Shown here: positions 1 to 19,590 of the stretch, one piece after another
How positions within the stretch are numbered: the first letter of the stretch is position 1
Layout of the letters: each line of letters begins with the position of its first letter
Origin: Neobacillus sp. DY30
Lineage (GTDB): Bacteria; Bacillota; Bacilli; Bacillales; Cytobacillaceae
Direction of reading: 5' to 3'
Assembly (NCBI RefSeq): GCF_030123065.1
Contig: NZ_CP126093.1
Coordinates: 1,430,001-1,494,000, forward strand
Length of the DNA: 64,000 bases
Position numbers and translations under genes: made by a program
The notes under the pieces: generated by a model
What the model was told of the DNA's origin: nothing
The model's database searches: none
What the model saw: the letters and a program-made list of their open reading frames with translations, nothing else

Positions 1-365
1 GTACGTTCGTTGAGCAGGCAAACAACGGGGATTCTGAGATGTTTATTCTAAGTTGGAGAAACGCAACTGGTGATGCCGATTATAATCAATACAACCTTTT
101 CCATACCAATTCTCAAGGAGCATCTGGAAATACCTTCTTCTATAGTAATAAAGAGGTAGATAGCTTAATTGAAGCTGCCCGTAAAGAAAAAGACCCTAAT
201 AAACGTATTGAACTATATGCTCAGTCACAAGAATTAGAAATGGAAGAAGCCGTCTATATTCCAGTAAGGGTGATTGAAAATCTCGCTGCTATCACGAAAG
301 ATATAAAAGGCTTTTCAATCAGCCCTTCTGGTTATTTAGAAATCAATGAAACTTCAATCAAATAG
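1..365 (+). CDS. ABC transporter substrate-binding protein, oligopeptide type (5'-truncated by window)
   Basis: This is the C-terminal part of a family 5 (peptide/nickel/opine-type) extracellular solute-binding protein. The reading frame is open from base 3 and continues without a stop, so the gene begins upstream of the window. Its stretch with the motif SWRNATGDADYNQ, a following NLFH and a late VYIPVRVIEN block matches almost residue for residue the C-termini of two full-length paralogs further on (ends at 3444 and 13568), closest to the first. It is followed by an imperfect hairpin and then by an amidohydrolase. It should deliver a ligand to the Opp/Dpp-type permease encoded at 7.8-11.7 kb, although a permease upstream of the window is also possible. 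Confidence 0.9.
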   Translation, partial: TFVEQANNGDSEMFILSWRNATGDADYNQYNLFHTNSQGASGNTFFYSNKEVDSLIEAARKEKDPNKRIELYAQSQELEMEEAVYIPVRVIENLAAITKDIKGFSISPSGYLEINETSIK

Positions 366-372
366 GTAATAG

Positions 373-411
373 GATAAGAGGGATATCCAAGTGGATACAC
401 CCTTTTATCTT
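373..411 (+). terminator. Imperfect hairpin between binding-protein gene and amidohydrolase
   Basis: An interrupted inverted repeat (GATAA..GGG..ATCC / GGAT..CCC..TTATC) follows the stop codon, and only a short T run follows. It is probably a partial terminator or an mRNA-stabilising 3' stem that lets some transcripts through to the amidohydrolase at 441. Confidence 0.45.
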
Positions 412-440
412 GTTAGAGTAATAGAAAGGGATGTTTTAAT

Positions 441-1664
441 ATGAGCCGTACTTTTTGGTTAACAAATGCCCGATTAGAAACGGGATATATTGTTGAAAAT
501 GATAGAGTAGCAGGAACAAAAACAGAGTTGTTTCACTTATTAATAGAGGATGGTAAAATCAAAAAAATAATAAAAGGACCAGTGCCTTTTGGAGATGAAC
601 ATCCCATTACGGATGCAGATGGGCTGCTCCTCCTTCCCTCATTTATTGAAAAGCATGTACATCTTGATAAGACCTACATGGGTGAGGACTTTAGGGCTTG
701 TATCCCGGCGTCAGGTGTTATTGAACGATGTGAAATAGAAAAAAACATTCTAGCATGCATTCCTTCCAGCACTCAGCAACGTGCAGAGGCTTTGCTAGAA
801 ATATTATTGTCTAATGGATCAACCCATGTAAGAACGCACGTGGATATCTATCCAGAAGCAGGATTAGACAATTTGGAAGGTGTCCAGCGTGCACTAAAAA
901 CATATTCAAATAGGCTGAGTGCTGAAATTGTTGCCTTTGCCCAGCATGGCTTGCTGCGTCCTGGTACTGTTCAACTAATAAGAGAAGCAGTAAGAAACGG
1001 TGCAGGGATTGTAGGGGCGGTTGACCCGGCAACGGTGGATCATAATATCGAAGCGTCATTAGTACAATTGATGGATTTGGCTGTCGAAGGGAATGCAGAT
1101 ATCGACTTGCATTTACATGACCCTGGACACTTAGGAACTTTCACTATGAAACGACTTGCTTATTTAACCAAGCAAGCAGGATGGGAAGGAAGGGTAGCAG
1201 TCAGTCATGCATTCGGATTGGGAGATGTCTCCAAAGAAGAAGCAATAGAAATGGCAGGGATTTTAAGAGAAGCTGGAATCTCCATTGTAACCAGTCTTCC
1301 AATTGGTCGGAATATTCCACCTGTAAATCTTTTAAATGAATATGGAGTAGATGTAGCCGTAGGGAACGATAATATCTATGATTCTTGGTGGCCTACAGGA
1401 AATGGTGATGTACTAGAAAGGGCTGGTCGTCTGATTGAACGATTCAGATGGACAGATGAGGTTTCACTTGGTCAAGCTTTAAAGTATATCACAGGGGGAA
1501 AAACTCTATTAGATAAGGATGGGAAGCAGTTATGGCCAAAGGCTGGTGATGCTGCGAATATCGTCCTTGTAGAAGCCAGCTGTGCGGCTGAAGCAGTTGC
1601 TAGACGATCAAAACGTAAAGCAGTTATCTATAAAGGTAACGTAGTTTATGGTACCTTGCATTAA
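441..1664 (+). CDS. Amidohydrolase, cytosine-deaminase-like (paralog 1)
   Basis: This 407-residue metal-dependent hydrolase belongs to the amidohydrolase superfamily and most resembles the cytosine deaminase/AtzC branch. Visible metal and catalytic positions are H72-x-H74 in a HVHLDKT motif, H224-L-H226-D227, H256 in SHAF, and D310 in GNDN. Cytosine deaminases carry a Glu three residues after the third metal His; here that place is Asp227. They also carry HDD rather than NDN before the last catalytic Asp. These changes suggest a different substrate, probably another ring amine or amide. The start is ATG behind AAAGGG. It lies 75 bases after a binding-protein gene and is followed by a terminator. 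The protein has no signal peptide, so it acts in the cytosol. The exact substrate is unknown. Confidence 0.85.
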   Translation: MSRTFWLTNARLETGYIVENDRVAGTKTELFHLLIEDGKIKKIIKGPVPFGDEHPITDADGLLLLPSFIEKHVHLDKTYMGEDFRACIPASGVIERCEIEKNILACIPSSTQQRAEALLEILLSNGSTHVRTHVDIYPEAGLDNLEGVQRALKTYSNRLSAEIVAFAQHGLLRPGTVQLIREAVRNGAGIVGAVDPATVDHNIEASLVQLMDLAVEGNADIDLHLHDPGHLGTFTMKRLAYLTKQAGWEGRVAVSHAFGLGDVSKEEAIEMAGILREAGISIVTSLPIGRNIPPVNLLNEYGVDVAVGNDNIYDSWWPTGNGDVLERAGRLIERFRWTDEVSLGQALKYITGGKTLLDKDGKQLWPKAGDAANIVLVEASCAAEAVARRSKRKAVIYKGNVVYGTLH

Positions 1665-1697
1665 AATCATTATTCATGTAGCAGTAATTCAATCATA

Positions 1698-1726: not shown

Positions 1727-1744
1727 GATATTGTTTTTAGTAGA

Positions 1745-1878: not shown

Positions 1879-3444
1879 ATGAAACAAAAATTAAATATCG
1901 GAAAATTTTTTCTGGTACTACTAATCATTATGGCGATTTCTGGTTGTTCGACAAATGATAATGCTGGGACAACTGGAAATGAAAAGGGAGATAAAGTGAA
2001 TAATGGCGGTACCTTGGTAATTGTTCGTTTATCAGACGCAGAGAACTTAGATCATCATTTTATGAATACGATCAATGCAGCTAGTATAACCCATGGGAAA
2101 GTTTATGAGGGCTTGGTAGGAAGAGATAAAGATTCTCAAATTCAGCCTTTATTGGCAAAATCATGGAAACAGGTGGATGATAAAACCTGGGAATTTAAAT
2201 TAAGAGATGATGTGAAATTTCATGATGGAACACTTTTTAATGCAAGCGCTGTCAAAATGAATTTTGACAGGCTTTTAGATCCGAATGTAAATGCACCTAG
2301 GGCCGGTGTATTTAAGATGGTTAGTGAAGTGAAAGTCATCGATGAATTTACAGTTCAATTTATCTTAGATGAATCGTTTGCACCTTTACTCTCCATCCTG
2401 GCCAGTCATGAGGGAGGAATTATAAGTCCTAATGCGATTGAGAAGTTTGGCAAGAACATCATCAATGAACCAAATGGAACCGGGCCTTTTTCATTTGAAT
2501 CTTGGAAACCAGGCCAAGAAATAGTATTAGCTAAAAATGAGCAATATTTTGGAGATAAAGCAAAGGTGGATAAAGTTATTTTTAAAATTGTTCCCGAGGA
2601 AACAACCAGAACCTCAATGATTGAGACAGGTGAAGCACATATAGCAGAGCCGCTTTCTGTAACGATGATGGATACAGTAGATGCTTCATCAGCAATGGAA
2701 GTCTATCGGAGTGAAGGTTTTGGTACGGAATATATTGGTTTTAACACGGAGAAAAAACCATTTAATGATATCCGTGTCCGAAAAGCGATTGCACATGCCA
2801 TTGAAATGGATTCTATTATCAAGGGTGTATTTAATAACGTAGGAAAAAAAGCGAATTCTCTATTAGGATCTCAAGTATTTGGATATCATGAAAGTTTGAA
2901 AGCTTATGAATTTAACGTAAATGAAGCTAAGAGATTATTGGCAGAAGCAGGATATCCTAATGGTTTAAAAACAATCTTGTCAACCAATGATGTAAAGGAA
3001 AGAATAAGTCTTGCAGAAGTTGTTCAATCACAGTTAAAAGGGATTGGTGTTGACGTAGAAATACAGGTATTTGAAGCTGGAACTTTTATTGAGAAAAGAA
3101 ATAGAGGAGAATCACAAATGTTTATTAATAGCTGGAGAAATGCAACTGGTGACGCCGATTACAATCAATTCAATCTTTTCCACTCGTCTTCAAAGGGACC
3201 TGCTGGTAATGTCTTCTTTTATAGTAATGAAAGGGTTGATCAGTTAGTTAATGCTGGACGAATAGAGAGTGATCCAGAAAAACGCATACAGATTTATGCG
3301 GAGGCACAAGAATTAGAAATGCAGGATGCTGTATATGTACCTGTACGTGTCATTGAAAACGTAGCTGCTGTTTCGAAAAATGTTGATGGTTTTAGAATCA
3401 GTGCGGCTGGGTATTTAGAACTTAATGATGTCTCAATTAAATAA
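1879..3444 (+). CDS. ABC transporter substrate-binding lipoprotein, oligopeptide type (paralog 2)
   Basis: This 521-residue family 5 solute-binding protein is exported and lipid-anchored. A short charged N-terminus and a hydrophobic segment end in a lipobox around Cys23 (AISGC). The family hallmark of HDGT and NA..VK motifs near residues 115-130 is present, as are the late ATGDADYNQ and PVRVIEN blocks shared with its two paralogs. The start is ATG with the site AAGGGGGAGAG. It stands alone as a unit between terminators, with an operator-like upstream region, so it can be induced separately from the permease genes it presumably serves. The ligand is not predictable; the neighbouring deaminases suggest a small nitrogenous compound rather than peptides. 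Confidence 0.9.
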   Translation: MKQKLNIGKFFLVLLIIMAISGCSTNDNAGTTGNEKGDKVNNGGTLVIVRLSDAENLDHHFMNTINAASITHGKVYEGLVGRDKDSQIQPLLAKSWKQVDDKTWEFKLRDDVKFHDGTLFNASAVKMNFDRLLDPNVNAPRAGVFKMVSEVKVIDEFTVQFILDESFAPLLSILASHEGGIISPNAIEKFGKNIINEPNGTGPFSFESWKPGQEIVLAKNEQYFGDKAKVDKVIFKIVPEETTRTSMIETGEAHIAEPLSVTMMDTVDASSAMEVYRSEGFGTEYIGFNTEKKPFNDIRVRKAIAHAIEMDSIIKGVFNNVGKKANSLLGSQVFGYHESLKAYEFNVNEAKRLLAEAGYPNGLKTILSTNDVKERISLAEVVQSQLKGIGVDVEIQVFEAGTFIEKRNRGESQMFINSWRNATGDADYNQFNLFHSSSKGPAGNVFFYSNERVDQLVNAGRIESDPEKRIQIYAEAQELEMQDAVYVPVRVIENVAAVSKNVDGFRISAAGYLELNDVSIK

Positions 3445-3459: not shown

Positions 3460-3515
3460 AGAGGCTGGTTCTAATGGTTGGTAAGTGACAACCATTTAGA
3501 GACAGCCTCTTTTTT
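3460..3515. terminator. Long bidirectional terminator between convergent units
   Basis: A long hairpin (AGAGGCTG..TCTAATGGTTG, loop, CAACCATTTAGA..CAGCCTCT) is followed by a T run on the plus strand. It separates the second binding-protein gene from the convergent transporter operon on the minus strand. Confidence 0.85.
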
Positions 3516-4956
3516 ATTCCTTTATTACACTTAAACCAAATTGTTTACTAAAATAATACAATGATAGATATAAAGGAATGGCTAGAAATATCCCTGTAAA
3601 CCAAGAAATACTAGTTAACGGACCAAGTAGGGGTACAAAATTACCTATTAGGCTTATTATGCCTGCAAAGATGGTTGCAATCATAGCAGGAAGATTAATC
3701 CCGTTAGAATATCGATTGTGATTAGTAGAATATAATTCTTGTAAATTAATTTCTTTTTTACAAATTAGGAAATAATTTGTTAGCGTTACACCAATGACGG
3801 GACTTAACAATCCTCCTACAATATTTAAAAAGGCAAATATACTCGTTGGGTTCTCCATTAACTTCCAAGGCATAATAAGTATACCAATAATGGTCGCAGC
3901 TAGAGCTCCTGTTCTAAAATTCAATTTTTTTGGAAATAGAGAAGCAAGTTGATAGCCAGCTGGTATGATATTCCCAACAATATTAACTGATAATGTAGAT
4001 AAGCAAATCGTTAGAAGTGAAAGGGTAATAGCAAATCTACTATCGAATCGCTCGACCACTTCAAGTACATTCCAAATCGGAACACCAAAAGCAATCTCTG
4101 AACCCACAATGATTGAAATGCTTGCTACAGCAAATAATAAATACGTAATAAACAATCCAGAAATCTGTCCCATTGACTGATCTTTATTGGAACGAGAAAA
4201 CCTAGTAATATCAGAAACACTTAGAATTTGTGCAACCCAGGTTGCCATAATTGCTGAAACACAACTTATGAAAACGAAAATACTATTTCCTTCGACCCCG
4301 CTTGAACTATAGTTTAGTATAGGTTCAAATCCACCTGCCAATTTTATGGACCAGAAAGCCATTCCGCCAAAAACCACAAAAATTAATGGGGATACCATTT
4401 TTGTTAACTTCCCTAATCGATCGATACCGGCAAAAATGAATAAAACATTAATGATCCAGAAGAGTAGAAAGGAAAGGAGACCAGGAAGGGTTAATCCAAA
4501 AAAGTTAAAACTTCCTCCCAAAGATAAATACTCTGGCCAAAATTCCCCTATTAAGATACTAATGGCTAGACTGCCTGCATAGGTTTGAAGACCGAACCAC
4601 ATAATTGCGGCAATAACGCCTCGTAGAACACCCGGAAAGAGAGCACCCTTTTTTCCATAGCTTGCACGAAGCAGAATAGAAAATGGAATTCCATATTTGC
4701 TGCCGGCATGCCCATTCAATACCATCATGACTGATAGTAATATAGAAGAAATGATAATGATAAAGAATACCTGCCAAATCGATAAGCCTAATGCAAAGAA
4801 TCCGCCAATTGTTACATACGAAGGCACGTTATGAACAGAGCCCATCCAGATGGAAAAAAATTGACCTTTCCTCCATGTTCTAGCCTCAGATGGAGTTGGT
4901 AATAAATCGGGGCTATAATGGGCTTGATTTTCAATTCGTGCATAATTTTGTCCCAA
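3514..4956 (-). CDS. NCS1-family nucleobase/hydantoin-type permease
   Basis: This 480-residue polytopic membrane protein belongs to the nucleobase:cation symporter-1 family (Mhp1, allantoin and cytosine permeases). Typical marks are the N-terminal NxxLxPTP..R.W region, WxG.VHNVPSY, a LNGHAGSKYGIPF stretch near residues 83-95, a WFGLQTYAG helix, and about twelve hydrophobic segments. It starts at TTG with a strong AGGAGG eight bases upstream; the stop of the preceding gene overlaps that site, so translation is coupled. It is the last gene of a four-gene minus-strand operon after the kinase, response regulator and SSS symporter. Import of the substrate or product of the island's deaminases is inference. 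Confidence 0.85.
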   Translation of the reverse strand: MGQNYARIENQAHYSPDLLPTPSEARTWRKGQFFSIWMGSVHNVPSYVTIGGFFALGLSIWQVFFIIIISSILLSVMMVLNGHAGSKYGIPFSILLRASYGKKGALFPGVLRGVIAAIMWFGLQTYAGSLAISILIGEFWPEYLSLGGSFNFFGLTLPGLLSFLLFWIINVLFIFAGIDRLGKLTKMVSPLIFVVFGGMAFWSIKLAGGFEPILNYSSSGVEGNSIFVFISCVSAIMATWVAQILSVSDITRFSRSNKDQSMGQISGLFITYLLFAVASISIIVGSEIAFGVPIWNVLEVVERFDSRFAITLSLLTICLSTLSVNIVGNIIPAGYQLASLFPKKLNFRTGALAATIIGILIMPWKLMENPTSIFAFLNIVGGLLSPVIGVTLTNYFLICKKEINLQELYSTNHNRYSNGINLPAMIATIFAGIISLIGNFVPLLGPLTSISWFTGIFLAIPLYLSLYYFSKQFGLSVIKE

Positions 4957-4968: not shown

Positions 4969-6282
4969 CTATGATACCTTACTATTATTTCTTGTTATTG
5001 TTTTATAGATTAAGACAAGAAGACATAGAACTGTTGAAATCATAAAGCTAAGCCATATTCCTTTAAAGTCATCAGTCATAGAAACAAAAATATAGCCTCC
5101 AATAGCTCCAATAAAGGATGAAAAGGGGACCATGAAAGGAAGGATACCTTTACTAAGGATAATATAAATAATTGGGCTAATTATCGCCGCATAAATATTC
5201 CCAGTAAAAAATAAAAGCTTGAGCGGACTGGGAGTAAGAATACTTACGATAACAAGCAAACAGACACATACTGACCCTGAAAAAATATAAGTGTATTTCC
5301 ATTTTTCATCGTTTGTCAGACTAATAAACATTTCCACTATATTTTTTACAAAAAGGGTAGTTGTTGCGTGCAATTCTGCACTTAGGGCCGAAGCTATTGA
5401 ACTAAAAATAAAGACAACAAATAGGACGATTAGTATGGATGATTGGATTCTGTTGACTAATTCAGAGAACAAGGAATATATATTTTCAAAACTTCTTCCA
5501 AAAATTGTAATCATTAATAAAGAGGATAAAGCCAGTGGGATGGTTGCCCAAATTAATCCTGTTAAGGTAAAGGTTATTTGAACCTTTTCTTTTTGAATAA
5601 TAAACATTCTTTGCCATGAAGCACGGTCTATCAAAACTTGACCAAAAAAGACAAAGATTGCTGTAAAAATAAACCAAAAAGCATCCGTGTTCTTTATATA
5701 CAATAAATAAGGATGATATAGCTTAATCCCATCATAAACAGGATAAACCCCGTCTTGAATATAAAAGTAGACCGGGATAATAATGACCGCTGCAAAAATA
5801 AGGGTGACATTAACAGCAGCCATTTGGTGAAGGCGTTGCATGCCTCCGGCTCCTCCGATAAAAAAACAGAAAGTTAAAAAAAGCAATAACCCAATAAAAT
5901 GAGGAATCGGAAAAATCATATGGATAAGAATTCCTGCACCCATCCCTTGGACAAATAAGGAATGAAAGCTAGTTAGGAGCATAACTGTTAACATTATCCA
6001 ATATCCGCTTGGTGTTAATTTTTCTTTTAAAACATCTCCAATTGTGTCGTGACCAAGATAATTCTCCCGGATTTTACTTGCCAAAAAACCAAATAAAATA
6101 TAGGATAACGCCCCAACTAGGGAGTATCCAATTCCACCGATAATTCCGTATTTGAGTAAGGTTTCCGGAGAGGAAAGTATTGTGTTTCCTGTTACCCATC
6201 GAGCCAGTAAACTTACAACTCCAAAGCTTACCCCGAGCTTTATAGCACCACTGATATATAACTGATAATCATTATTTCTCAA
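4969..6282 (-). CDS. SSS-family (sodium:solute) symporter-like membrane protein
   Basis: This 437-residue protein has about twelve or thirteen hydrophobic helices. The order of features resembles the sodium:solute symporter family: GIIGGIGYSLVGAL in an early helix, GGAGGMQRLHQ in the middle, and DRASWQRMF around residue 215-225, the place where these proteins carry a DxxxWQR-like motif. It is somewhat shorter than the usual 470-550 residues. The start TTG overlaps the stop of the response-regulator gene (TTGA), behind AAGGGAG, showing translational coupling. It could be a transporter or, given its link to a kinase and regulator, a transporter-like sensor. The family call is moderately secure; the substrate is unknown. 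Confidence 0.65.
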   Translation of the reverse strand: MRNNDYQLYISGAIKLGVSFGVVSLLARWVTGNTILSSPETLLKYGIIGGIGYSLVGALSYILFGFLASKIRENYLGHDTIGDVLKEKLTPSGYWIMLTVMLLTSFHSLFVQGMGAGILIHMIFPIPHFIGLLLFLTFCFFIGGAGGMQRLHQMAAVNVTLIFAAVIIIPVYFYIQDGVYPVYDGIKLYHPYLLYIKNTDAFWFIFTAIFVFFGQVLIDRASWQRMFIIQKEKVQITFTLTGLIWATIPLALSSLLMITIFGRSFENIYSLFSELVNRIQSSILIVLFVVFIFSSIASALSAELHATTTLFVKNIVEMFISLTNDEKWKYTYIFSGSVCVCLLVIVSILTPSPLKLLFFTGNIYAAIISPIIYIILSKGILPFMVPFSSFIGAIGGYIFVSMTDDFKGIWLSFMISTVLCLLVLIYKTITRNNSKVS

Positions 6283-6971
6283 TGAAATGTCTCCCTTAAG
6301 CGATAATCCCTAGGTGATTGACCTGTCATTTTTCGGAAAATTTGGCTGAAATAATGCTGGCTGTTAAAACCGCATCTTTCAGAAATCGTACTAATACTTA
6401 GATCAGGATACTCAACAAGCATTCTTTGAGCTTCCTTTAAGCGAAACTCATTTAAATACTCGGAAAAGCCCATCCCAACTTCCTCATGAAATTTTCTACT
6501 TAAATAAGCGGGATTAATATGAATTTTTGAAGCTAAATAATTTAACGTTAATTTCTCACTATATTCCGCATGAATAATGCTAATTGCATTTACAATTTGC
6601 TCTGAGTATCGCCCTATTCTTTCATACTTGCTTAATACGACCATTAATTCATCTTCAATAATGGGTTTGGTTATGTAATCAACTACCCCAATTCTTATCG
6701 AAGTTTGAGCATATTCAAAATTTTGAAAAGCAGTAACCATTATAATGTCAATCGTATACGTTTGTGTTAATTCTTTAGCTAAATCTAATCCATTTTTACC
6801 GGGAATCTGAATATCTAGAAATGCAAGAAAGATGTCATGTTGCTTAACGATTTGGAGTGCTATGGAAGCATCTTGAGCTTTGAAAATTTTCCAATTTGGA
6901 AATTTTTTATGGATTAAATACTCAAGCTGCTCTAATTCTAGCGGTTCATCATCAACGAGCAGGATATTCAT
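6279..6971 (-). CDS. Two-component response regulator, AraC-type output (YesN-like)
   Basis: This 230-residue regulator has an N-terminal receiver domain (acidic pocket DDE at 7-9, phosphoacceptor Asp53 in FLDIQIPG, Lys in YITKP near 102) and a C-terminal AraC/XylS double helix-turn-helix (about residues 130-228, with the QHYFSQIFRKMTGQSP.DYR signature). It follows the kinase gene by 18 bases and overlaps the symporter gene by four. The expected role is transcription activation of transport genes in the island upon phosphorylation; direct-repeat sites such as those at 1772-1804 fit AraC-type binding, but this is inference. Confidence 0.92.
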   Translation of the reverse strand: MNILLVDDEPLELEQLEYLIHKKFPNWKIFKAQDASIALQIVKQHDIFLAFLDIQIPGKNGLDLAKELTQTYTIDIIMVTAFQNFEYAQTSIRIGVVDYITKPIIEDELMVVLSKYERIGRYSEQIVNAISIIHAEYSEKLTLNYLASKIHINPAYLSRKFHEEVGMGFSEYLNEFRLKEAQRMLVEYPDLSISTISERCGFNSQHYFSQIFRKMTGQSPRDYRLRETFH

Positions 6972-6989: not shown

Positions 6990-7739
6990 TTAAATTTCAG
7001 ATTTTTGTATGAATGGAAAAATAGCTAAAACACTTGTTCCATTGTCTGAGTTGATTAATTGCACAGATGTTTTACTATCTGGGAATAATAACTCCAGCCT
7101 TTTCTTAATGTTTTCTAAACCAAGTCCTCTATCTGGTGACAGTTGCTCAGATCCTTCAATCGTATTGTTCCATACCGTGATATGAATGTCTTTTTCTCGT
7201 TTTTCAATGGTTGTTTTTAAAAAGGCTTCACCAACATATCTCTCAAAAGAATGTTTAAAAGCATTTTCGATGAAGGTTTGAATAATAAAAGGGATGGTAA
7301 TGGCTTGGTATACATTAGGATCAATCGTAAATTCATAATACAGCCTGTCTCGAAAACGTATTTTTTGTATTTCTAGATAATAATTGACATAGGTGATTTC
7401 CTGATCGATTGTAATAAATGTGTTATTCGTTTGATACTTAAATTTAAGAAGTTTTGATAGTGTTTCAATCGATCGAATTAATTCTGTTTTTCGATCCAGC
7501 CTTGCTAGGCTTAGTATCGAATTTAATGTATTAAAAAAGAAATGAGGCTGTATTTCTTGATTCAATTGGTTATAGAGGGCAGTTTGCAGCTCTCTTTCAA
7601 GAGTAATTTCCCGTGTTTTTTTTTCCAGCAGGTCAATTCGCTTTTCAAAAATAAATAAGAAAAGCAAGGTAAAGGCCCCTAGTAAAGGAGCTAGAGCGGC
7701 AATCATAATATTTAGGGAGAAAGCTTCAACTGTTAACAT
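6990..7739 (-). CDS. Sensor histidine kinase, LytS/YesM type
   Basis: This 249-residue kinase has a His_kinase domain of the LytS/YesM type: phosphoacceptor His66 in QPHFFFNTLNSI, then an HATPase domain with FIENAFKHSF and GLGLENIKKRLELLF. It is very short. The N-terminus has only one hydrophobic segment (about residues 8-31) and no extracellular sensor domain, so it may read the state of a partner such as the symporter-like protein in the same operon. The start ATG follows AAGGAG. It is the first gene of kinase, regulator, symporter, NCS1 permease. A terminator for the preceding ABC operon lies only 25 bases upstream, which leaves little room for an independent promoter. Confidence 0.9.
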   Translation of the reverse strand: MLTVEAFSLNIMIAALAPLLGAFTLLFLFIFEKRIDLLEKKTREITLERELQTALYNQLNQEIQPHFFFNTLNSILSLARLDRKTELIRSIETLSKLLKFKYQTNNTFITIDQEITYVNYYLEIQKIRFRDRLYYEFTIDPNVYQAITIPFIIQTFIENAFKHSFERYVGEAFLKTTIEKREKDIHITVWNNTIEGSEQLSPDRGLGLENIKKRLELLFPDSKTSVQLINSDNGTSVLAIFPFIQKSEI

Positions 7740-9846: not shown

Positions 9847-9859
9847 TTTTCACCACCTG

Positions 9860-10780: not shown

Positions 10781-10796
10781 CTTAATTAACCCTCCT

Positions 10797-11699
10797 CTAT
10801 TTCTTCATTCTTGGATCAAAGGCATCACGTAATCCATCTCCAAAAATATTAAAGCCTAAAACTAGTATAGAAATAGCAAGCCCTGGAAAAATAGCGATAT
10901 AAGGTGCAGAGAATAAGAAATCCCTGCCACTGCTTAACATCGTTCCCCATTCGGGAGAAGGGGGCTGGGCACCAAGACCGAGGAAAGATAAACCAGCTGC
11001 TGAAAGAATAACAGTAGCAAGTCTTAGTGTCCCTTGCACAATAATAGGTGATAGTATATTTGGCAAAATATGTTTAAAGATAATGGTTACGTCATTCGCT
11101 CCAAGTGAGCGGACAGCGTCAATATACTCGAGTCTTTTCACTTCTAAAGTAGAGCCGCGGACAATACGAGCAAATAATGGAATAGAATATGCGCCGACAG
11201 CTATCGTTACATTAATTAACCCAGGACCAAGGGCACTAATGATGGCTAAAGCAAGTAAGATCCCTGGGAATGCCAAAAGGATATCCATGATTCTCATAAT
11301 GGTTGAATCAATCCATTTCCCATAATAGCCTGCGATGAGTCCCAAAATTATTCCAAAAAAGGCACCAAAGATTACTGCAGTTATTCCAATTCCCATCGAA
11401 AGTCTAGAACCATAAAGGATACGACTTAAGATATCTCTTCCTTTATCATCTGTACCCATCCAGTGATCTGCTGAGGGAGGTATTAATTTGTTTTCTAAAT
11501 TAATTTCGTAAGGATCATAGGGAGCAAGTAATGGTGCGAAAAGTGCGATAAACACATAGAAAAGAATAATGATCGCACCGACCATTGCCGCTTTATTCAT
11601 TGTTAAGATAGATAAGAAATCTCTTAGTTTAGATTCTTTTGGTTGATTCATTGTTTGCTTAATTACAACTGGTGAATCTGTTTTTGCTTCAAGTGTCAC
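10797..11699 (-). CDS. Oligopeptide-type ABC transporter permease (DppC-like)
   Basis: This 300-residue permease has an N-terminal cytosolic tail and six helices. Family marks are FAPLLAPYDP near residue 58, GTDDKGRDILSRILYGSR, and the EAA loop with RSLGAN..IIFKHILPN. It starts at GTG behind AAGGAGGGG and is the first gene of the minus-strand permease-ATPase operon (C, B, D, F order). It diverges from a binding-protein gene across a 291-base intergenic region. Confidence 0.92.
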   Translation of the reverse strand: MTLEAKTDSPVVIKQTMNQPKESKLRDFLSILTMNKAAMVGAIIILFYVFIALFAPLLAPYDPYEINLENKLIPPSADHWMGTDDKGRDILSRILYGSRLSMGIGITAVIFGAFFGIILGLIAGYYGKWIDSTIMRIMDILLAFPGILLALAIISALGPGLINVTIAVGAYSIPLFARIVRGSTLEVKRLEYIDAVRSLGANDVTIIFKHILPNILSPIIVQGTLRLATVILSAAGLSFLGLGAQPPSPEWGTMLSSGRDFLFSAPYIAIFPGLAISILVLGFNIFGDGLRDAFDPRMKK

Positions 11700-11990: not shown

Positions 11991-13568
11991 ATGGAGGGAA
12001 ACAAAAGAGTTTTAAGAAAAGCAATACTATTAGTATTAATAGGATTAATGCTATTGATTGCTCAAGCATGTTCAACAAAATCAACTTCATCTAATGAAGG
12101 AGAAAGTAAAAAAGAAGGGGAAAAACAAGGCGGCACCTTAACAGTTGTTCGACTTTCGGATGCAACCAAGCTAGACCCGCATTTTATTACGGATATTCCA
12201 TCAGCCAATATTATCTACCAAAAAGTTTATCAGGGTCTTGTAGTTCCGGATAAGGACTTTAAAATTCAACCACTATTGGCGAAAGAATGGAAAGTAGTAA
12301 ATGATACAACTTGGGAATTTAAATTAAGAGATGATGTAACTTTCCATGATGGAACCCCATTTAACGCAGAGGCAGTAAAAGTAACGTTTAATCGATTATT
12401 AGATCCAGCTACAGGTTCACCTCAACGTACGAAATTTGAAATGATCACAGAAGTAAAAGTAATAGATGATTACACTGTTCAATTAATGCTTGCCTACCCA
12501 TATGCACCTTTGTTATCAATTTTGGCAAGCCAGGAAGGTAGCATCATCAGTCCAAAAGCTTTAGCTGAAAATCCTGAAAAACTAGCTGAACATCCAGTAG
12601 GAACAGGACCATTTGTATTTGATGCTTGGAAAAGCGGGCAGGAAATCTCATTAACGAAAAATGAAAATTACTGGGGCAAGAAGCCAAATATTGATCGTGT
12701 AGTATATAAGGTAGTACCTGAGGATGCAACCCGTCTTGCGATGATTGAAACGGGAGAAGCACACATTAATGACCAAGTACCGGTGACTGAAATTGAACGT
12801 ATTGAGGCATCCGATACAATGGGGCTTTATCGTACAGAAGGACTAGCTGTTGAATTCCTTGGATTTAATACAAAGAAAAAACCGTTTGATGATGTGAAGG
12901 TTCGTAGAGCCATCAGCCATGCAATTGAAAGAGAAGCTATTATTAAAGGTGTATATAATAATGTAGGAACACTCGCAAATGCGGCGATGAGCCCTAAAGT
13001 TTTAGGTTATAGCGACAAGATTCAGCCTTATGATTATGATTTGAATGAAGCAAAGCAATTGTTAAAAGAAGCTGGTTATGAGAATGGTTTAGAAATTAAA
13101 TTATTGACAAGTGACCGAAAAGAAAGAATCAACATGGCAGAAGTAATTCAATCCCAATTAAAAGGAATCGGCGTAAATGTTGAAATACAAGTAATGGAAT
13201 ACGGTGCATTTATTGAAATGCTTAATAATGGTGAACATGAAATGGTTATTAACGGTTGGGGAAATGCAACTGGTGACGGAGATTACAATCAGTATAATTT
13301 ATTCCACTCTGCATCACAGGGTCCAGCGGGTAACCATTTTTACTACAGTAATCCAGAAGCAGACCAAAAGATTGAGGCAGCACGTAAAGAAACAGATGAA
13401 GCAAAGCGTTTAGCACTATATGAAGAAGTGATGCAAATCGAAATGGATGATGCTGTATATATCCCAATTCGTAACTATGAGCATATAGCAGCCCACAGCA
13501 AAAACGTAAGCGGTTTTTGGCTGAATGCAGCGAACTACCTTATGATTGATGATGTAGTAGTTAAGTAA
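11991..13568 (+). CDS. ABC transporter substrate-binding lipoprotein, oligopeptide type (paralog 3)
   Basis: This 525-residue family 5 solute-binding lipoprotein has its lipobox Cys at position 27 (AQAC). Motifs HDGTPFNAEAVK, VGTGPFVF and ATGDGDYNQYNLFH are shared with the two other copies in this window. It is more diverged from them than they are from each other. The ATG follows GAAGGAGAG. It heads an operon with two amidohydrolase genes (13635 and 14888), which couples ligand capture directly with deamination. The permease operon lies divergently upstream, so this is the copy most surely matched to it. Confidence 0.92.
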   Translation: MEGNKRVLRKAILLVLIGLMLLIAQACSTKSTSSNEGESKKEGEKQGGTLTVVRLSDATKLDPHFITDIPSANIIYQKVYQGLVVPDKDFKIQPLLAKEWKVVNDTTWEFKLRDDVTFHDGTPFNAEAVKVTFNRLLDPATGSPQRTKFEMITEVKVIDDYTVQLMLAYPYAPLLSILASQEGSIISPKALAENPEKLAEHPVGTGPFVFDAWKSGQEISLTKNENYWGKKPNIDRVVYKVVPEDATRLAMIETGEAHINDQVPVTEIERIEASDTMGLYRTEGLAVEFLGFNTKKKPFDDVKVRRAISHAIEREAIIKGVYNNVGTLANAAMSPKVLGYSDKIQPYDYDLNEAKQLLKEAGYENGLEIKLLTSDRKERINMAEVIQSQLKGIGVNVEIQVMEYGAFIEMLNNGEHEMVINGWGNATGDGDYNQYNLFHSASQGPAGNHFYYSNPEADQKIEAARKETDEAKRLALYEEVMQIEMDDAVYIPIRNYEHIAAHSKNVSGFWLNAANYLMIDDVVVK

Positions 13569-13578
13569 AGGAAACAAA

Positions 13579-13608
13579 TGAAAAGTACTTTTGTAAAAAA
13601 GTACTTTT
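13579..13608 (+). other. Paired palindrome between binding-protein and amidohydrolase genes
   Basis: The 12-base palindrome AAAAGTACTTTT occurs twice with GTAA between, so the RNA can form a 12-base stem. It starts 11 bases after the binding-protein stop and is followed by a broken T run. It may act as an attenuator or a 3' protecting stem, as the hairpin at 373-411 does in the first unit. Confidence 0.5.
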
Positions 13609-13634
13609 CCTACTTTTTAATAGGAGGATTAAAA

Positions 13635-14873
13635 ATGAATATATTTTGGCTGACGAATGTACGTTTAGAAAAAGGCTTCATAAAGGGAAATGAACGTATC
13701 TCAGGTACTGAAACAGAAATATGCCACTTGAAAATTGAAGATGGAAAAATTACCGAGATCACAAATGTTTTTCCTAATGATGAAGAGCGACAGGTTGATG
13801 CGTGCAGTCAACTCCTTCTTCCGACGTTACGAGATATGCATATTCACATTGATAAAACCTATTATGGCGGACCTTGGAAAGCTTGTACTCCACTTACAAA
13901 AGGTATTTTTACTCGATTAGAAGAAGAAAAAGAACTGCTGCCAAAGTTGCTGCCAACTGCCCAGGAGCGAGCAGAGAAAATGATTGAAATGTACTTAAAA
14001 AATGGTCACACCCATATTAGGACTCATTGTAATGTAGATCCTGTGATTGGTCTCAAAAATTTAGAGGCAACAGTGAACGCATTGAAAAAATACGAGGATG
14101 TTCTCACATATGAAATCGTAGCGTTTCCGCAACATGGGTTGTTAAAGAGTGAATCTGTTCAATTAGTTCGCAGTGCGATGAAGAATGGTGCAACATTAGT
14201 TGGGGGTGTTGACCCTGCTACTGTTGATCGAAATATTGAAAAATCCTTAAATACAATTTTTGAAATTGCTGTAGAAAACAATAAAGGGGTAGATATTCAT
14301 TTACATGATCCCAACACTTTGGGAGCATTTACCTTTGAAAGAATGGCATATTATACGAAAGAAGCAGGTCTGAAAGGGAGGGCCACAATCAGCCACGCCA
14401 TTGCACTAGGTGATTTACATGGGGAGGCACTTACAGAAATAGCTGCGGTATTAAAAGATCAAGAAATTGATATTACTTCAACAGTTCCGGTAAATCGACC
14501 TACAATTCCAATTCCAACTTTAGACAAATTTGGTATTCAAGTTTCTGTGGGACATGACAGTATTACGGACCACTGGTCACCATTTGGAACAGGGAATACG
14601 ATTCAAAAGCTTGGGATTCTTGCGGAACGGTTCCGACTATCTGACGAATACTCATTGTCAAGAACCTTGAAATTTGGAACTGGAGGAGTTACACCGCTGA
14701 ATGAAAAAGGCGATCGTGTTTGGCCAAAAGTTGGCGATGACGCAACCATGATGCTCGTAAACGCAACCTGTTCTGCTGAAGCAGTCGCTAGGAGGGCTGC
14801 TGTAGAAGCGTTATTTTTTAAAGGAAAAAAGGTTGAAAGTAAGTTAACACAATCAAATCCGGTACAGGTATAA
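13635..14873 (+). CDS. Amidohydrolase, cytosine-deaminase-like (paralog 2)
   Basis: This 412-residue member of the amidohydrolase superfamily has H69-x-H71 in MHIHIDKTY, a later HLHD motif, SHA for the fourth metal His, and GHDS for the catalytic Asp. That last motif is nearer to the GHDD of cytosine deaminases than the other two paralogs. The frame is open from 13578, but ATG at 13635 has AGGAGG eight bases before it and aligns with the other paralogs (INxFWLTNVRLE-type start), so I use it. It is the second gene of an operon with the binding lipoprotein and a third amidohydrolase 14 bases downstream. It is probably a cytosolic deaminase or amidase of a heterocycle. Confidence 0.85.
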   Translation: MNIFWLTNVRLEKGFIKGNERISGTETEICHLKIEDGKITEITNVFPNDEERQVDACSQLLLPTLRDMHIHIDKTYYGGPWKACTPLTKGIFTRLEEEKELLPKLLPTAQERAEKMIEMYLKNGHTHIRTHCNVDPVIGLKNLEATVNALKKYEDVLTYEIVAFPQHGLLKSESVQLVRSAMKNGATLVGGVDPATVDRNIEKSLNTIFEIAVENNKGVDIHLHDPNTLGAFTFERMAYYTKEAGLKGRATISHAIALGDLHGEALTEIAAVLKDQEIDITSTVPVNRPTIPIPTLDKFGIQVSVGHDSITDHWSPFGTGNTIQKLGILAERFRLSDEYSLSRTLKFGTGGVTPLNEKGDRVWPKVGDDATMMLVNATCSAEAVARRAAVEALFFKGKKVESKLTQSNPVQV

Positions 14874-14887: not shown

Positions 14888-16108
14888 TTGACCACTCCAT
14901 ATTGGATAAAAAACGTAAGATTAGAGACTGGGTATATCAAGGATGAAAAAGGTGTATACGAAACAAAAACGGAGCTTTTTAATTTAAAAATTGTAGAAGG
15001 AAGAATTGTAGAAAAACAGAATAATAGCTTTGTTATTCCACAAGGTGAAAGCATAAAAGATGCAAAAGGGTTATTAGCATTACCATCTTTTAAAGAAATG
15101 CACAATCATCTAGATAAAACTTATCTTTCACTTGAGTGGAAGTCACCGATACCAGCTAAAAATTTAGAAGAACGGCTACGATTAGAAGCGGCGGAACTAG
15201 AGGAATTAATGCCAACAACCAAACAGCGTGCTAGTGCTATGATTGAATTGCTTCTATCACATGGTTCGACACATATTCGAACACATGTAAATATCGATCC
15301 CTATATCGGTTTAAAGAACCTTGAGGGTGTTAAAGCTGCGCTCGAAGATTATTCAGGCAGACTTACTTATGAGATTGTAGCTTTTCCGCAACATGGGTTA
15401 TTAAGAGAAAATGTTATCCCAATGATGAAAGAAGCGATGAGAACTGGAGCAAACCTTGTCGGCGGGTTAGACCCTGCAGGGATTGACCGAAATATTGAAA
15501 AATCACTCTATGAAGTAATGAATCTTGCGACACAATTTGATGCAGATATTGATATACATTTACATGATAGTGGACATGTTGGCTATTATACAGTTGACAA
15601 ACTAGCTGAAATGGTAGAACAGGCAAAATGGCACAACCGTACAGCCGTCAGCCACGCTTTTAGCTTGGGGGAAGTACCATTGCCTCAGCAGGAAGAAATG
15701 GCAGAAAAGCTGAGCGGGCTGGGAATGTCTATTATGTCTACCATTCCTATTACAAGAACCCTTCCTCCAATTGATCTTTTAGATCATAAGGGGGTTAACG
15801 TTTACTTAGGCTGCGATGGATTTTATGATTCCTGGGGACCATTCGGCACAGGTGATGTGTTAGAAAAGGTAACGCGTTATGGCGAGCTATATCGTAAGAG
15901 TGATGAACGTTCATTAGCACAGTCGCTAAAATGGGCGACGGGAGGGCCTACACCATTAACGCAGGAGGGCGAGGTTGCCTGGCCGCTTCCTGGGGATGAG
16001 GCAAATCTAGTTCTTGTCCATGCATCCTGTTCAGCAGAAGCAGTAGCGAGAACACCAAAGCGTGAAGCTGTAATTTTTAGAGGAAAAGTAGTATCAGGAC
16101 AATTGTAA
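14888..16108 (+). CDS. Amidohydrolase, cytosine-deaminase-like (paralog 3)
   Basis: This 406-residue amidohydrolase has HNHLDKTY for the first metal pair, HLHDSGH for the third, SHAFSLG for the fourth and GCDG for the catalytic Asp. The base before that Asp is Cys here, Asn in paralog 1 and His in paralog 2, so the three enzymes differ exactly where the ring is bound. The start is TTG with AAAGGAGG seven bases upstream, 14 bases after the previous stop. It is the last gene before a strong terminator. Confidence 0.85.
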   Translation: MTTPYWIKNVRLETGYIKDEKGVYETKTELFNLKIVEGRIVEKQNNSFVIPQGESIKDAKGLLALPSFKEMHNHLDKTYLSLEWKSPIPAKNLEERLRLEAAELEELMPTTKQRASAMIELLLSHGSTHIRTHVNIDPYIGLKNLEGVKAALEDYSGRLTYEIVAFPQHGLLRENVIPMMKEAMRTGANLVGGLDPAGIDRNIEKSLYEVMNLATQFDADIDIHLHDSGHVGYYTVDKLAEMVEQAKWHNRTAVSHAFSLGEVPLPQQEEMAEKLSGLGMSIMSTIPITRTLPPIDLLDHKGVNVYLGCDGFYDSWGPFGTGDVLEKVTRYGELYRKSDERSLAQSLKWATGGPTPLTQEGEVAWPLPGDEANLVLVHASCSAEAVARTPKREAVIFRGKVVSGQL

Positions 16109-16145: not shown

Positions 16146-16148
16146 TTA

Positions 16149-17855
16149 TCAATCTAGGCGAAGTTTCTTATTTAACAATCTAAAGATTTTTAATGCTAAT
16201 TGGATTTGAAGGAGTTCCTCAGAATTCTTTAAATCAGAATTTAATATTTCTTTAATTTTCTCAATTCTATAGATCAGTGTGTTCCGATGCAAGAACATCG
16301 CTTTTGCTGTTTCACTGATATTTAAGTTATTTTGAAAATAATTTTCTAATGTAATGATGTAGCTGGTTCCATGTAATTGATCGTGTTCATAAATTTTTCC
16401 GAGCTGCTTCATAAAAAACTCTTCTAGGTCAGGGGCCTTAATATTTGAATCTAAAAAGTGGTAGATAGAATGATCTTCAAAATGGGATACTCCGCCACTG
16501 TTTTCAAATTTTTGCATTAATCTTATCGATTCATTTGCTTCCGAAAAGCTTTTATGTAGAGAATGAATGGTTTCATACTGTCTGCCAATGCCGATTAAGA
16601 AGTTGGAATTGCTAATTTGCTTATTCAAGATACTATATAGGTTATTAGTGTATTGTTTTGCTTCATTAACAGAAACTGCCGGTCGGTTTTCATGCTGTCC
16701 GATTAAGATGATGATGCGATTGTTTCGATGAATGCATGTAACTTCTCCATCTGCTTTATTAGCGTAATCATATATTAGCTCTACACATTTTCGGGCTTTA
16801 TTTTCCAAGCTGACCCTTCTAGCCACCATATCCTCATACTTCTCTAACTCCTCTGATTGTATATTAATCACAATACAGTAATACATATAATTTGAATGGA
16901 GTCCATGCATTTCACTTAGCGTATGGATGGTTTCACTAGAGGTTATTTTTCCAGTAAGCAAATCATCAAAAAAGTCCTGTCGGATCTTTAATTTCACTTC
17001 TTCTATTTCCTTGGCTTTTATTCTTTCAAGCGCAATGTTCGTCGATGCCTGTTCTAAAATGATGAAGTCAAATTCAGTTAGTTCACTTACTGTTTGCCAT
17101 ACAATTATATATCCATAAATATAGCTTGCTGCGGCAACAGGCAAGATTCTACAATTTACTTCGATGTCTTCTAAATAATAAATACGTTGAATGGTCTTTT
17201 TCATTTCACTTACATTTTTAGGAATAGAGTCAACGAATTCCTTTGGAAAAGCAGGTCTATTTTTCACCAAATCTAAACAGTATGAAAGCGGAACTTTATT
17301 ATTCATATGTTCTGTAAAGTCCACTAGTTTCCAATCTTCATTTACAAATATAATTGGATTATTAATGGTCTCAGATAACATTGATAAAATTCTATCTATT
17401 CCTCCGCCTTCAAGTGTAATTCTAAAAAATAAATTATGTATGTCTAGAGTTTTTCTATTTAATAAATCATATCTTCCCGATGCTTTTTCATTAATAATCG
17501 AAATAACCCTTGATAAGGTATATTCAAATGGTAATTCTAATAATGGTAATCCAAGCCTGTTTGCTTCGTCAATCATGTTCTGTGGGAGTTTATCAAAGTA
17601 TCTTTTCATTTTGACAATTAGTCCGGCACAGTTTATTTGGGAAAGCTCTTGAATGATTCGATTCTGTAACTCTTCATTGTCCTTGAAAATATATCCTGTT
17701 GATAAAAGTAATTCATTTGGTGATAACCAATCGAATACCTCAGGATTTTCAATAATATTTACAATCGCTATCTCATTATTAATTCCTTTTTCCCCAGCTA
17801 CTATTTTTAATCCATCAATCGCTTTAATTTCAAAAAGGTCCTTAACGGTTAACAA
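16149..17855 (-). CDS. PucR-family transcriptional regulator
   Basis: This 568-residue regulator has an N-terminal PucR domain (about residues 1-125; begins LTVKDLFEI, with LLLSTGY), a middle region resembling the GGDEF-like domain of CdaR proteins, and a C-terminal HTH_30 domain (about 500-560; NISETAKAMFLHRNTLIYRIEKI). Family members control purine, allantoin, GABA or sugar-diacid use. It starts at TTG behind AGGATG. It lies between the deaminase operon and an NCS2 permease, so it is the best candidate regulator of the island. The 12-mer TTTTTAGGACCA 120 bases upstream of its start recurs in front of the binding-protein gene at 1879. Confidence 0.9.
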   Translation of the reverse strand: MLTVKDLFEIKAIDGLKIVAGEKGINNEIAIVNIIENPEVFDWLSPNELLLSTGYIFKDNEELQNRIIQELSQINCAGLIVKMKRYFDKLPQNMIDEANRLGLPLLELPFEYTLSRVISIINEKASGRYDLLNRKTLDIHNLFFRITLEGGGIDRILSMLSETINNPIIFVNEDWKLVDFTEHMNNKVPLSYCLDLVKNRPAFPKEFVDSIPKNVSEMKKTIQRIYYLEDIEVNCRILPVAAASYIYGYIIVWQTVSELTEFDFIILEQASTNIALERIKAKEIEEVKLKIRQDFFDDLLTGKITSSETIHTLSEMHGLHSNYMYYCIVINIQSEELEKYEDMVARRVSLENKARKCVELIYDYANKADGEVTCIHRNNRIIILIGQHENRPAVSVNEAKQYTNNLYSILNKQISNSNFLIGIGRQYETIHSLHKSFSEANESIRLMQKFENSGGVSHFEDHSIYHFLDSNIKAPDLEEFFMKQLGKIYEHDQLHGTSYIITLENYFQNNLNISETAKAMFLHRNTLIYRIEKIKEILNSDLKNSEELLQIQLALKIFRLLNKKLRLD

Positions 17856-18303
17856 TCTTTACACATCCTAAAATATCATTTCCACCCACTTTCATTGTAC
17901 AACATGCTCAAATGAAATCAAGTTTTTATGGTTCAGGTAAACAATGACTTTCTTAGGTATTAGAACTAAAATGTTTTTAGGACCAAGTATGATTCAAAAG
18001 AGACTTCTTAGAGAATAATGGATTAATAGTGATTATCTATAATTCTGGCAGCTTAACATAAGGTATCGTTTAAAGAAGAGAAAGATTAGTTTGAAGAAGT
18101 GTTTGTGACAATTTTAACACAACTCATTATGCATGGTGCCTAAAAACTTAAGATTATTTTAGGCAAGGTAACCAATAAAATTTTAGACTCTTACATAAGC
18201 TTAACAATTAATTATATTTTGTTATAATTGAGAATGTCTGTTGCTGTCCCTTATTGGAACAGGATTTTGACATTTTTTAATCTGAAAGGTTAATAAACAA
18301 TCA
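17856..18303. other. Divergent intergenic region, PucR regulator / NCS2 permease
   Basis: No gene is seen in these 448 bases. It contains TTTTTAGGACCA at 17974-17985 (an exact repeat of 1745-1756), a sigma-A-like promoter at 18201-18228 and, in the leader, a short imperfect hairpin CTGTCCC / GGAACAG (18244-18262) with TTTTTT about ten bases later. I do not recognise a known riboswitch. Confidence 0.55.
18201..18228 (+). promoter_or_regulatory. Sigma-A-type promoter of NCS2 permease
   Basis: TTAACA (18201-18206), 16-base spacer, TATAAT (18223-18228). Transcription would begin near 18235, giving a leader of about 70 bases. Confidence 0.6.
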
Positions 18304-19590
18304 ATGAATATAAAAAACAATTACTTAAGTGTGTTTCAATGGTTTATCTATTTACTTGCTAATTCTATTGCGCTTCCAATTGTAATTGGAAATGTATTTC
18401 ATTTATCTGCGGCAGAAATATCCGCTTTAATGCAGCGGACGTTTTTTATCGTAGGATTGAGCTCTTTTATTCAAGGGAAATTTGGTCACAGATATCCAAT
18501 AGTAGATGGGCCAGCTGGCTCTTGGGTTAGTATTTTTGTTATCTTTGCTAATATTGGAACGCAGCAAGGTTTGTCATTGATGGAGACTATACGAACCCTT
18601 GAGGCGGGATTGATTGTTGCTGGAGTAATATTATTCCTGTTAGGGATAACAAAGTGGGTCCAACATTTATTGATTCTCTTTTCACCAATTGTTACTGGCA
18701 CATTTCTGTTTATATTAGCTATACAATTAAGTGGTGTCTTTTTAAAGGGAATGGTAACAATGGATAGCAGTACGGGTCAGCTTGATGTGAGGAGCTTTCT
18801 ATTAGCTATTTTTACATTTACCTTTATTATTGTACTTTCATCTAAAGCTAAAGGATGGTTAAAAAACTATGCAATCTTATTAGGAATTTTAGCAGGGTGG
18901 ATTGCATTTTTAATTTTAGGAGAAGGTCGTCAAAGCAATTCAGTAGTATCAACTGATATCATCAAGCTGCCAGAAATTTTTCCATGGGGTTTCCCTGTAA
19001 TAACGGGGAGTGTATTGATTACAACTATCTTATTTACTTTTTTACTCATTTCTAATACATTAGCCGCCATCACCGCTGCTGAGGAATCAATCCCAAATAA
19101 TAAAGGGCAATTCCGTGTTAGGCTTAATCGAGGAACCTCGATAGGAGGAGTTTCCCATCTATTATCTGCTGTATTTTCAACAATTGGTGTGGTGCCTTTA
19201 CCAGCTACAGCAGGCTTTGTTAGATTAACAAAACAATACCGTATAATTCCTTTTCTGTTTGCATGTGGGATTATGATATTGATTTCATTGTTTCCGAGTA
19301 TTGTTGGCTTCTTGGCTTCCTTACCATTACCCGTAGCCAGTGCTGCTTTATTAAGCACACTAATCGAGATGCTCGGGATAGCAATTCGCTCACTGACAAA
19401 ACAGCCATTAAACGACAGGAATATAACAATTATCGGGTTATCCTTATTATTTGGAATTGGAATCATGTTTTTACCAGATGATATCTTTAACGGTCTTCCA
19501 TATATCATTCAAAATATAGGTAAAAATGGTTTATTAGTAGGAACATTACTAGCAATAATTCTTGAACAACTTTGGAAATCCAAAAATTAA
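18304..19590 (+). CDS. NCS2-family (xanthine/uracil-type) nucleobase permease
   Basis: This 428-residue polytopic protein belongs to the nucleobase-ascorbate transporter/NCS2 family. Visible features are QWFIYLLANSIALPIVIG in the first helix, QGKFGHRYPIVDGPAGSW near residues 56-73, and a NTLAAI..EES region in helix 8 in the place of the family's substrate-binding acidic motif. The ATG has only a weak site (GAAAGG, 15 bases upstream) and no in-frame start lies further up. The location next to a PucR regulator and deaminases supports import of a purine- or pyrimidine-like compound. Confidence 0.85.
   Translation: MNIKNNYLSVFQWFIYLLANSIALPIVIGNVFHLSAAEISALMQRTFFIVGLSSFIQGKFGHRYPIVDGPAGSWVSIFVIFANIGTQQGLSLMETIRTLEAGLIVAGVILFLLGITKWVQHLLILFSPIVTGTFLFILAIQLSGVFLKGMVTMDSSTGQLDVRSFLLAIFTFTFIIVLSSKAKGWLKNYAILLGILAGWIAFLILGEGRQSNSVVSTDIIKLPEIFPWGFPVITGSVLITTILFTFLLISNTLAAITAAEESIPNNKGQFRVRLNRGTSIGGVSHLLSAVFSTIGVVPLPATAGFVRLTKQYRIIPFLFACGIMILISLFPSIVGFLASLPLPVASAALLSTLIEMLGIAIRSLTKQPLNDRNITIIGLSLLFGIGIMFLPDDIFNGLPYIIQNIGKNGLLVGTLLAIILEQLWKSKN

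Follow-up and report, generated by a model that had tools for sequence, protein, structure and literature searches.

An island of two nested gene modules in Neobacillus sp. DY30 combines a lipoprotein-fed importer and AtzC-type amidohydrolases with AllHFG transcarbamylase genes

In the chromosome of Neobacillus sp. DY30, three amidohydrolases resembling cytosine deaminases are encoded beside a lipoprotein-fed ATP-binding cassette (ABC) importer and several nucleobase-type carriers, which raises the question of what compound such a set of genes handles. We analysed a stretch of 64,000 nucleotides (NZ_CP126093.1, positions 1,430,001 to 1,494,000 of the forward strand, or G000:C1:1430001-1494000; hereafter the window) of this genome, which consists of one contig of 6.14 Mb. 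The gene cluster at the start of the window is an island of two conserved modules, one nested inside the other. Module A comprises the Opp/Dpp-type importer with its lipoproteins, an SSS-type carrier and a two-component system, the amidohydrolases AHA, AHB and AHC and, upstream, two further amidohydrolases (AH501 and AH489). Module B comprises a PucR regulator, an NCS2 permease, the transcarbamylase genes AllH-F-G of allantoin-pathway type and carbamate kinase, together with an ankyrin/TPR protein, a guanine-deaminase-like protein and two long permeases. Module A occupies the gap between carbamate kinase and PucR, and thus lies within module B. The island probably lets the cell obtain nitrogen from ring compounds, for which the best-supported class is nucleobases in modified or oxidised form and the ureides related to them.

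The island is truncated by the window edge. It begins ~22.7 kb (about 23 kb) earlier, with AllH at G000:C1:1407312, and spans ~42 kb from AllH to NCS2. Its genes are as follows, with upstream genes in the coordinates of stretches L164 and L005 and all others in those of the window.

L164:9312-15464, upstream of the window: AllH, AllF, AllG, a 514-aa permease and a 149-aa guanine-deaminase-like protein, in this order
L005:2969-4264: IS110-type transposase gene, between the two upstream portions of module B
L005:4646-15365: alpha/beta hydrolase, 515-aa permease, ankyrin/TPR protein, carbamate kinase, response regulator, AH501, AH489 and SBP1, in this order
L005:7561-9725: the ankyrin/TPR protein
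L005:12220-13689: AH489, PRK06151 family
L005:13797-15365: SBP1, family-5 binding lipoprotein of 522 aa, whole gene; its last 120 codons are at window 3..365 (+)
441..1664 (+): AHA, AtzC/CodA-type amidohydrolase (NF005312), with 12 of 12 AtzC active-site letters and N at position 304
1879..3444 (+): SBP2, family-5 binding lipoprotein, 71% identical to SBP1
3514..4956 (-): NCS1 carrier, closest to allantoin permeases, at 612 bits just below the cut-off of 620
4969..6282 (-): SSS-type carrier, weak SSF match (23.0 bits against a Pfam cut-off of 22.8)
6279..6971 (-): response regulator with an AraC-type DNA-binding domain
6990..7739 (-): LytS/YesM-like histidine kinase with one membrane region, in which Pfam finds no sensor domain
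7838..8863 (-): OppF-type ABC ATPase, family from sequence and position
8830..9846 (-): OppD-type ABC ATPase, family from sequence and position
9860..10780 (-): OppB-type permease
10797..11699 (-): OppC-type permease, family from sequence and position
11991..13568 (+): SBP3, family-5 binding lipoprotein, divergent to the Opp genes
13578..14873 (+): AHB, AtzC/CodA-type amidohydrolase (NF005312), S at 304; the real start is perhaps the ATG at codon 20
14888..16108 (+): AHC, AtzC/CodA-type amidohydrolase (NF005312), G at 304
16149..17855 (-): PucR-type regulator, module B
18304..19590 (+): NCS2 purine/pyrimidine permease, module B

A preliminary description of the window had taken its first 19.6 kb for one accessory pathway of uptake and hydrolytic deamination of an N-heterocycle. 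Its inventory stands: three SBP_bac_5 lipoproteins, the first seen there only as its last 120 codons; a single OppB/C/D/F core (7838-11699 (-)); three cytosine-deaminase-like amidohydrolases; NCS1, NCS2 and SSS-type permeases, the last by a weak match; a His_kinase/response-regulator pair; and a PucR regulator. The single pathway gives way to two modules with an earlier start, and PucR and NCS2 go with the transcarbamylase module. The term accessory is borne out by a patchy spread, since a relative of AHC (E<=1e-80) is found in 50 of 193 genomes of the family, 41 of which (DY30 included) have an orthologue 73-100% identical. The closest named AHC orthologues (80-88% identical) are mostly from Neobacillus niacini and its relatives. 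Nicotinate catabolism, an idea suggested by that species name, was rejected, as no recognised gene of the island fits it.

Gene neighbours do not vary freely among other genomes, where the same gene set was sought, and their order recurs in many genera, more than chance would give. Two samples, which share genomes, were used: 80 named loci (the best 80 of 144 by AHC similarity, several of them ending at contig edges, with genes matched at at least 40% identity) and 22 regions (genes counted at at least 55% identity). Two of the regions (G177, G172) have a reduced AHA-AHB form. The other 20, DY30 included, all encode SSS, response regulator, histidine kinase, OppF, OppD, OppB, OppC, SBP3, AHB and AHC, with the order kept; AHA and SBP1 each occur in 19, AH489 in 18, NCS1 and carbamate kinase each in 12, PucR in 11, AH501 in 9, NCS2 in 4 and SBP2 in 3. 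The NCS2 permease and third lipoprotein of the preliminary description are therefore variable parts. Among the named loci, AHB and AHC are adjacent in 79/80, SSS is present in 54/80, OppB-OppC stands next to SBP3-AHB-AHC in 53/80, and the ten-gene core is complete in 49/80. Seven loci from Peribacillus, Gottfriedia and allied Bacillus (L094, L096, L109-L112, L114) have the order OppB-OppC-SBP3-AH501-AH489-SBP1-AHB-AHC-AHA. A Qingshengfaniella plasmid encodes a Dpp-type importer together with an AtzC-type enzyme and a relative of AH489, which extends the pairing of importer and enzyme outside the Bacillota. Some loci also include allantoin-pathway genes: allantoinase, allantoate deiminase (read with a late start in G049) and ureidoglycine aminohydrolase lie between AHA and SSS in G043, G037 and G049, and NCS1, AllB and AllC follow AHC in L050.

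All three amidohydrolases score above the NCBIfam cut-off for NF005312, and AtzC is the best or second-best structure match for each, with CodA next. Against three cytosine-deaminase models they reach 78-117 bits, where the cut-offs are 403-483. At twelve active-site positions of AtzC, taken from PMC4577212 (like the other papers cited here, used in excerpt), AtzC and AHA both read HHKFQDHHHDNW, and only the eleventh position differs in AHB (S) and AHC (G). The AtzC metal ligands H60, H62, H217 and D303 and the catalytic H249 are thus kept in all three enzymes. The pocket residues K65, Q160, D188, H219, W309 and N304 are all present in AHA, and AHB and AHC deviate from them solely at 304. Asn304 of AtzC touches the docked substrate, and its replacement by Asp raised kcat 7-fold and KM to 25 mM (excerpt of PMC4577212).

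The residue at this position is nearly invariant within each paralogue: N in 35/35 AHA, S in 85/86 AHB (T in 1/86) and G in 88/88 AHC orthologues, counted as distinct sequences because the loci and regions share genomes. There are 72 columns in which every paralogue is at least 95% fixed; the three agree in 64 of these, show two letters in 7 and three letters in just one, position 304; at a threshold of 90%, two more columns differ in all three paralogues alongside 304. A tree of 16 randomly drawn sequences per paralogue, made without a Priestia row, has three well-supported groups (AHA 98/89, AHC 100/99, and AHB with one Pantoea protein 100/99). The Pantoea protein sits inside the AHB clade on a long branch, and AtzC is placed outside the clade of the three. 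Three fixed letters at one contact position, together with the supported clades, therefore suggest, in sequence terms, that the paralogues have stayed separate because each has its own task; they would act on different substrates or in successive steps.

The three lipoproteins are 55-71% identical to one another and 27-33% identical to DppA and GsiB. At R355 and D408 of DppA, which we take to be the residues that grip the ends of a dipeptide, SBP1-3 have E and A instead, the first assignment being less sure owing to a gapped alignment near R355. The SSS carrier gene lies two genes on from that of the kinase, which suggests a split form of an SSS-fused kinase such as CbrA; the carrier, as a possible sensor partner, would supply the signal to the sensor-less kinase.

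The second module has the AllF, AllG and AllH families and carbamate kinase, with AllH of DY30 assigned through its 64% identity to a family-scanned protein. We found 65 AllG matches and fetched 20 with their surroundings, which split into 10 island-type loci, 9 E. coli-type loci and 1 intermediate (L170). With L164 added there are 11 island-type stretches (AllG at least 80% identical to the reference; L186 is shortened). These include an alpha/beta hydrolase in 10, a long permease and the 149-aa deaminase in 9 each, PucR in 8, the ankyrin/TPR protein in 7, carbamate kinase in 5 and NCS2 in 2; in DY30 the kinase, ankyrin gene, PucR and NCS2 lie outside the counted stretch. The E. coli-type loci (AllG 60-63% identical to K-12) have carbamate kinase in 9/9 and the ankyrin gene, long permease or PucR in 0/9. 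AllC, AllE and AllD occur together in 0/11 island-type loci, where L183 has one AllC-like match (38%), and in 3/9 E. coli-type loci, whose set is AllC, ureidoglycine aminohydrolase and AllD. An E. coli IncF plasmid (pHS13-1-IncF, L187:4421-11537) carries a row of ankyrin, AllH, AllF, AllG, long permease and carbamate kinase genes; its AllG is 75% identical to that of the island, compared to 46% for K-12, and its permease 68%. Given the two types of AllG locus and this plasmid copy, module B is a mobile unit in its own right. An ankyrin-repeat protein accompanies island-type AllH-F-G both in Bacillaceae and on the E. coli plasmid, and may be a subunit or help in assembly. The long permeases (514 and 515 aa) had no match among NCBIfam or Pfam models at the thresholds used; source names for relatives of the 515-aa permease include xanthine permease and adenine/guanine/hypoxanthine permease.

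The two modules are joined in several ways. The nested arrangement of DY30 is also found in G135, G108 and G122; elsewhere module B follows AHC via PucR (G139, G112, G150, G129, G178) or precedes AH489 (G157, G147). Within the family, 41 genomes have an AHC orthologue, 46 have AllG and 26 have both, and in 17 of these 26 the two genes are 5.5-34.7 kb apart on one contig (they are on separate contigs in 7, and far apart on the same contig in G062 and G020). In genus g1, AllG is present in 19 of 20 genomes with AHC (the exception is G130) and in ten additional genomes without AHC.

We give a probability of roughly one half to a reading in which module A imports ring compounds and removes their amines and module B breaks down the ureide that results. 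N-substituted amino-oxo heterocycles would enter via the lipoprotein-fed importer, and the three AtzC-type enzymes are predicted to hydrolyse amino or alkylamino groups off the imported rings. Module B would then turn a ureide-type product into carbamoyl phosphate, and this into ATP, CO2 and ammonia; that the product of module A is the substrate of module B is something we infer from their linkage. The substrate class named above is favoured because NCS1, NCS2, PucR, allantoin-pathway and transcarbamylase genes recur near module A. Of the uptake and hydrolysis of an N-heterocycle proposed earlier, the recurring unit is now observed, and the heterocyclic substrate and its deamination remain predictions. 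The reading draws on sequence data: which genes are present, in what order and how often they recur, the catalytic residues of AtzC type, the N/S/G clades and partial linkage of the modules.

Several observations weigh against it. There is no AllG match in 15 of the 41 genomes with an AHC orthologue, the two genes are unlinked in 9 of the 26 genomes that have both, and 10 fetched loci have module B but no AHC orthologue close by. Elsewhere in the DY30 genome there is a purine-type locus that encodes a true allantoinase, above the AllB cut-off; a working idea that the genome is without allantoinase (best match 39%) was dropped when the family scan found this AllB-type enzyme. An EamA-type carrier gene, found immediately after the amidohydrolases (AHC or AHA) in 24/80 loci (e.g. 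L075:11227-12153; one protein was family-scanned), would suit either fate of the product, export or use. Finally, just 5 of the 11 island-type AllG stretches have carbamate kinase (that of DY30 lies further on), and we therefore hold this reading, and the damaged-base version of it that follows, less firmly. In that version AHA, AHB and AHC are natural counterparts of AtzC that tell substrates apart by residue 304 (N, S or G) and strip amines from nucleobases, modified or oxidised, that a dedicated importer supplies; a second class of AllHFG, with an ankyrin partner and an acceptor other than oxamate, splits the ureide, and carbamoyl phosphate yields ATP, so that the cell would gain energy and ammonia from damaged or modified bases by an unnamed route. 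Taken with all its details, this version is unlikely.

The EamA-type carrier, which could export a deaminated ring, is also the starting point for the alternative that the cell strips nitrogen and discards the ring through EamA-type or nucleobase carriers, with module B an unrelated neighbour. That modules A and B are each found without the other in fetched loci is consistent with this, but they are joined in nested, following and preceding arrangements and linked in 17/26 genomes with both genes, and no EamA gene was seen in the island of the window; we consider export a minority possibility. Quite improbable, in our view, is ordinary salvage of cytosine or isocytosine, in which the enzymes feed uracil and the ABC importer independently carries peptides. 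CodA is the structure match right after AtzC, the importer belongs to the Opp/Dpp family, and enzymes of the CodA cluster are promiscuous (excerpt of PMC12828455). The scores for cytosine deaminases nevertheless fail, at 117 bits at best, and so does the CodA pocket: T66 is replaced by K and D314 by N, S or G, and the column of E217 has D in 97/100 AHB rows and in every AHA and AHC, with the AtzC-type His one column earlier. Thus AtzC-type H219 and K65 stand where CodA has a D/E-type residue and T. The three fixed letters at one contact site argue for three jobs, SBP1-3 are without the two ligand-end residues of DppA, and importer and enzymes recur jointly. The preliminary description had named ordinary cytosine deaminases with a peptide importer as the case that would overturn it, and the AtzC letters, the fixed pattern at 304 and the missing DppA contacts make that case disfavoured, as far as residues can tell.

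A substrate class of cyclic guanidines (creatinine, or iminohydantoins such as guanidinohydantoin/iminoallantoin) would instead yield hydantoins or allantoin for the ureide route. These rings have the C=N-C=O that CodA-cluster enzymes require (excerpt of PMC12828455), the match of compounds being our own, and in four loci module A contains or adjoins allantoin genes. Among the recognised genes of the island none is of creatininase or hydantoin-racemase type, and our literature search found no link of such an enzyme to iminoallantoin, so that we regard this as the least probable of the explanations weighed here.

The two upstream amidohydrolases, AH501 and AH489, fall on the GuaD/AtzA-like side of the superfamily. 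Their first metal-binding HxH reads HGH in AH501 (19/19 rows) and NAL in AH489 and its orthologues (28/28 rows; identical sequences may recur among rows), and AH489 may therefore bind metal in another way or be inactive. AH489 is retained in 18/20 islands despite its NAL motif.

Other AtzC-like genes of the Bacillota were considered as relatives. An Enterococcus faecalis locus with the look of an operon for an AtzC-like enzyme, AllFGH, carbamate kinase and AllD was rejected, since its amidohydrolase has D at position 219 and F at 309 and does not share the AtzC pattern; seven further Bacillota matches to AtzC do not share it either. In this locus (NZ_CP143580.1, L211:1-10230), genes for FdrA, AllH, carbamate kinase and AllD are followed by an amidohydrolase of the CodA/AtzC cluster. 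A search of the window and L005 at Rfam gathering thresholds, with L164 excluded, found no riboswitch in the island; the sole match is a TPP riboswitch outside it, at window 26459-26566 on the plus strand.

The island gives AtzC-type chemistry a recurring natural setting that can be tested. AtzB has already been traced to a hydrolase of modified guanine (excerpt of PMC13054789); for the AtzC type our literature search found no native role. With N, S or G fixed at a single contact residue, the subfamily offers a direct way into the question of what sets its specificity, and the ankyrin-linked transcarbamylase class, which soil Bacillaceae have in common with E. coli plasmids, is a further step in its own right. 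Even if the enzyme activity fails to bear out, the island exemplifies two modules joined in various ways. A literature search by title and start of abstract, thin on subscription journals, found no paper describing the whole gene set.

Each part of the island resembles a known system and departs from it. The importer shares family-5 binding proteins and an OppB/C/D/F core with Opp/Dpp peptide importers, but SBP1-3 are distant from DppA and GsiB (27-33%) and lack the two ligand-end residues of DppA. In module B, AllH, AllF, AllG and carbamate kinase are shared with the AllFGH/AllK oxamate transcarbamylase of E. coli, but island AllG is only 46% identical to that of K-12, and the ankyrin/TPR protein and long permease replace AllC, AllE and AllD. 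In excerpt, AllFGH and AllK are described as acting on oxalurate in E. coli (PMC11326118), allFGH and allK as adjoining triuret genes in Nitrospira_D genomes (PMC12625717), and an E. coli region as having FdrA-like, DUF1116, carbamate kinase and CodB-like genes (PMC12928451); these excerpts do not describe the present gene set. E. coli CodA has the amidohydrolase subtype, the metal ligands and Q156, H246 and W319 in common with AHA, AHB and AHC, but is 25-28% identical to them, and they have T66 and D314 substituted and an AtzC-type His in the HxH(D) motif. Relatives of AtzB provide a precedent for natural kin of an atrazine amidohydrolase that act on a modified nucleobase, one being an N2,N2-dimethylguanine hydrolase (excerpt of PMC13054789), but AtzB belongs to the GuaD cluster, whereas AHA, AHB and AHC belong to the CodA/AtzC cluster (excerpt of PMC12828455).

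The closest comparison is AtzC itself, to which the three enzymes are only 29-31% identical. For this comparison we know of no s-triazine gene set and of no pairing with a dedicated importer. The AtzC system and the island are alike in having a carbamate kinase gene near an AtzC-type enzyme: on pADP-1 the kinase gene is 57 bp from atzC (L196:20220-22448, or pADP-1 70219-72447), and its product is 49% identical to the island kinase. A kinase at least 97% identical adjoins atzC in 7 of 9 plasmids whose atzC is at least 99% identical (with 83% coverage in one), near-identical genes that we count as a single event. AtzC next to carbamate kinase is thus a second setting for such a pairing, and the pair may be a remnant of an earlier AtzC pathway.

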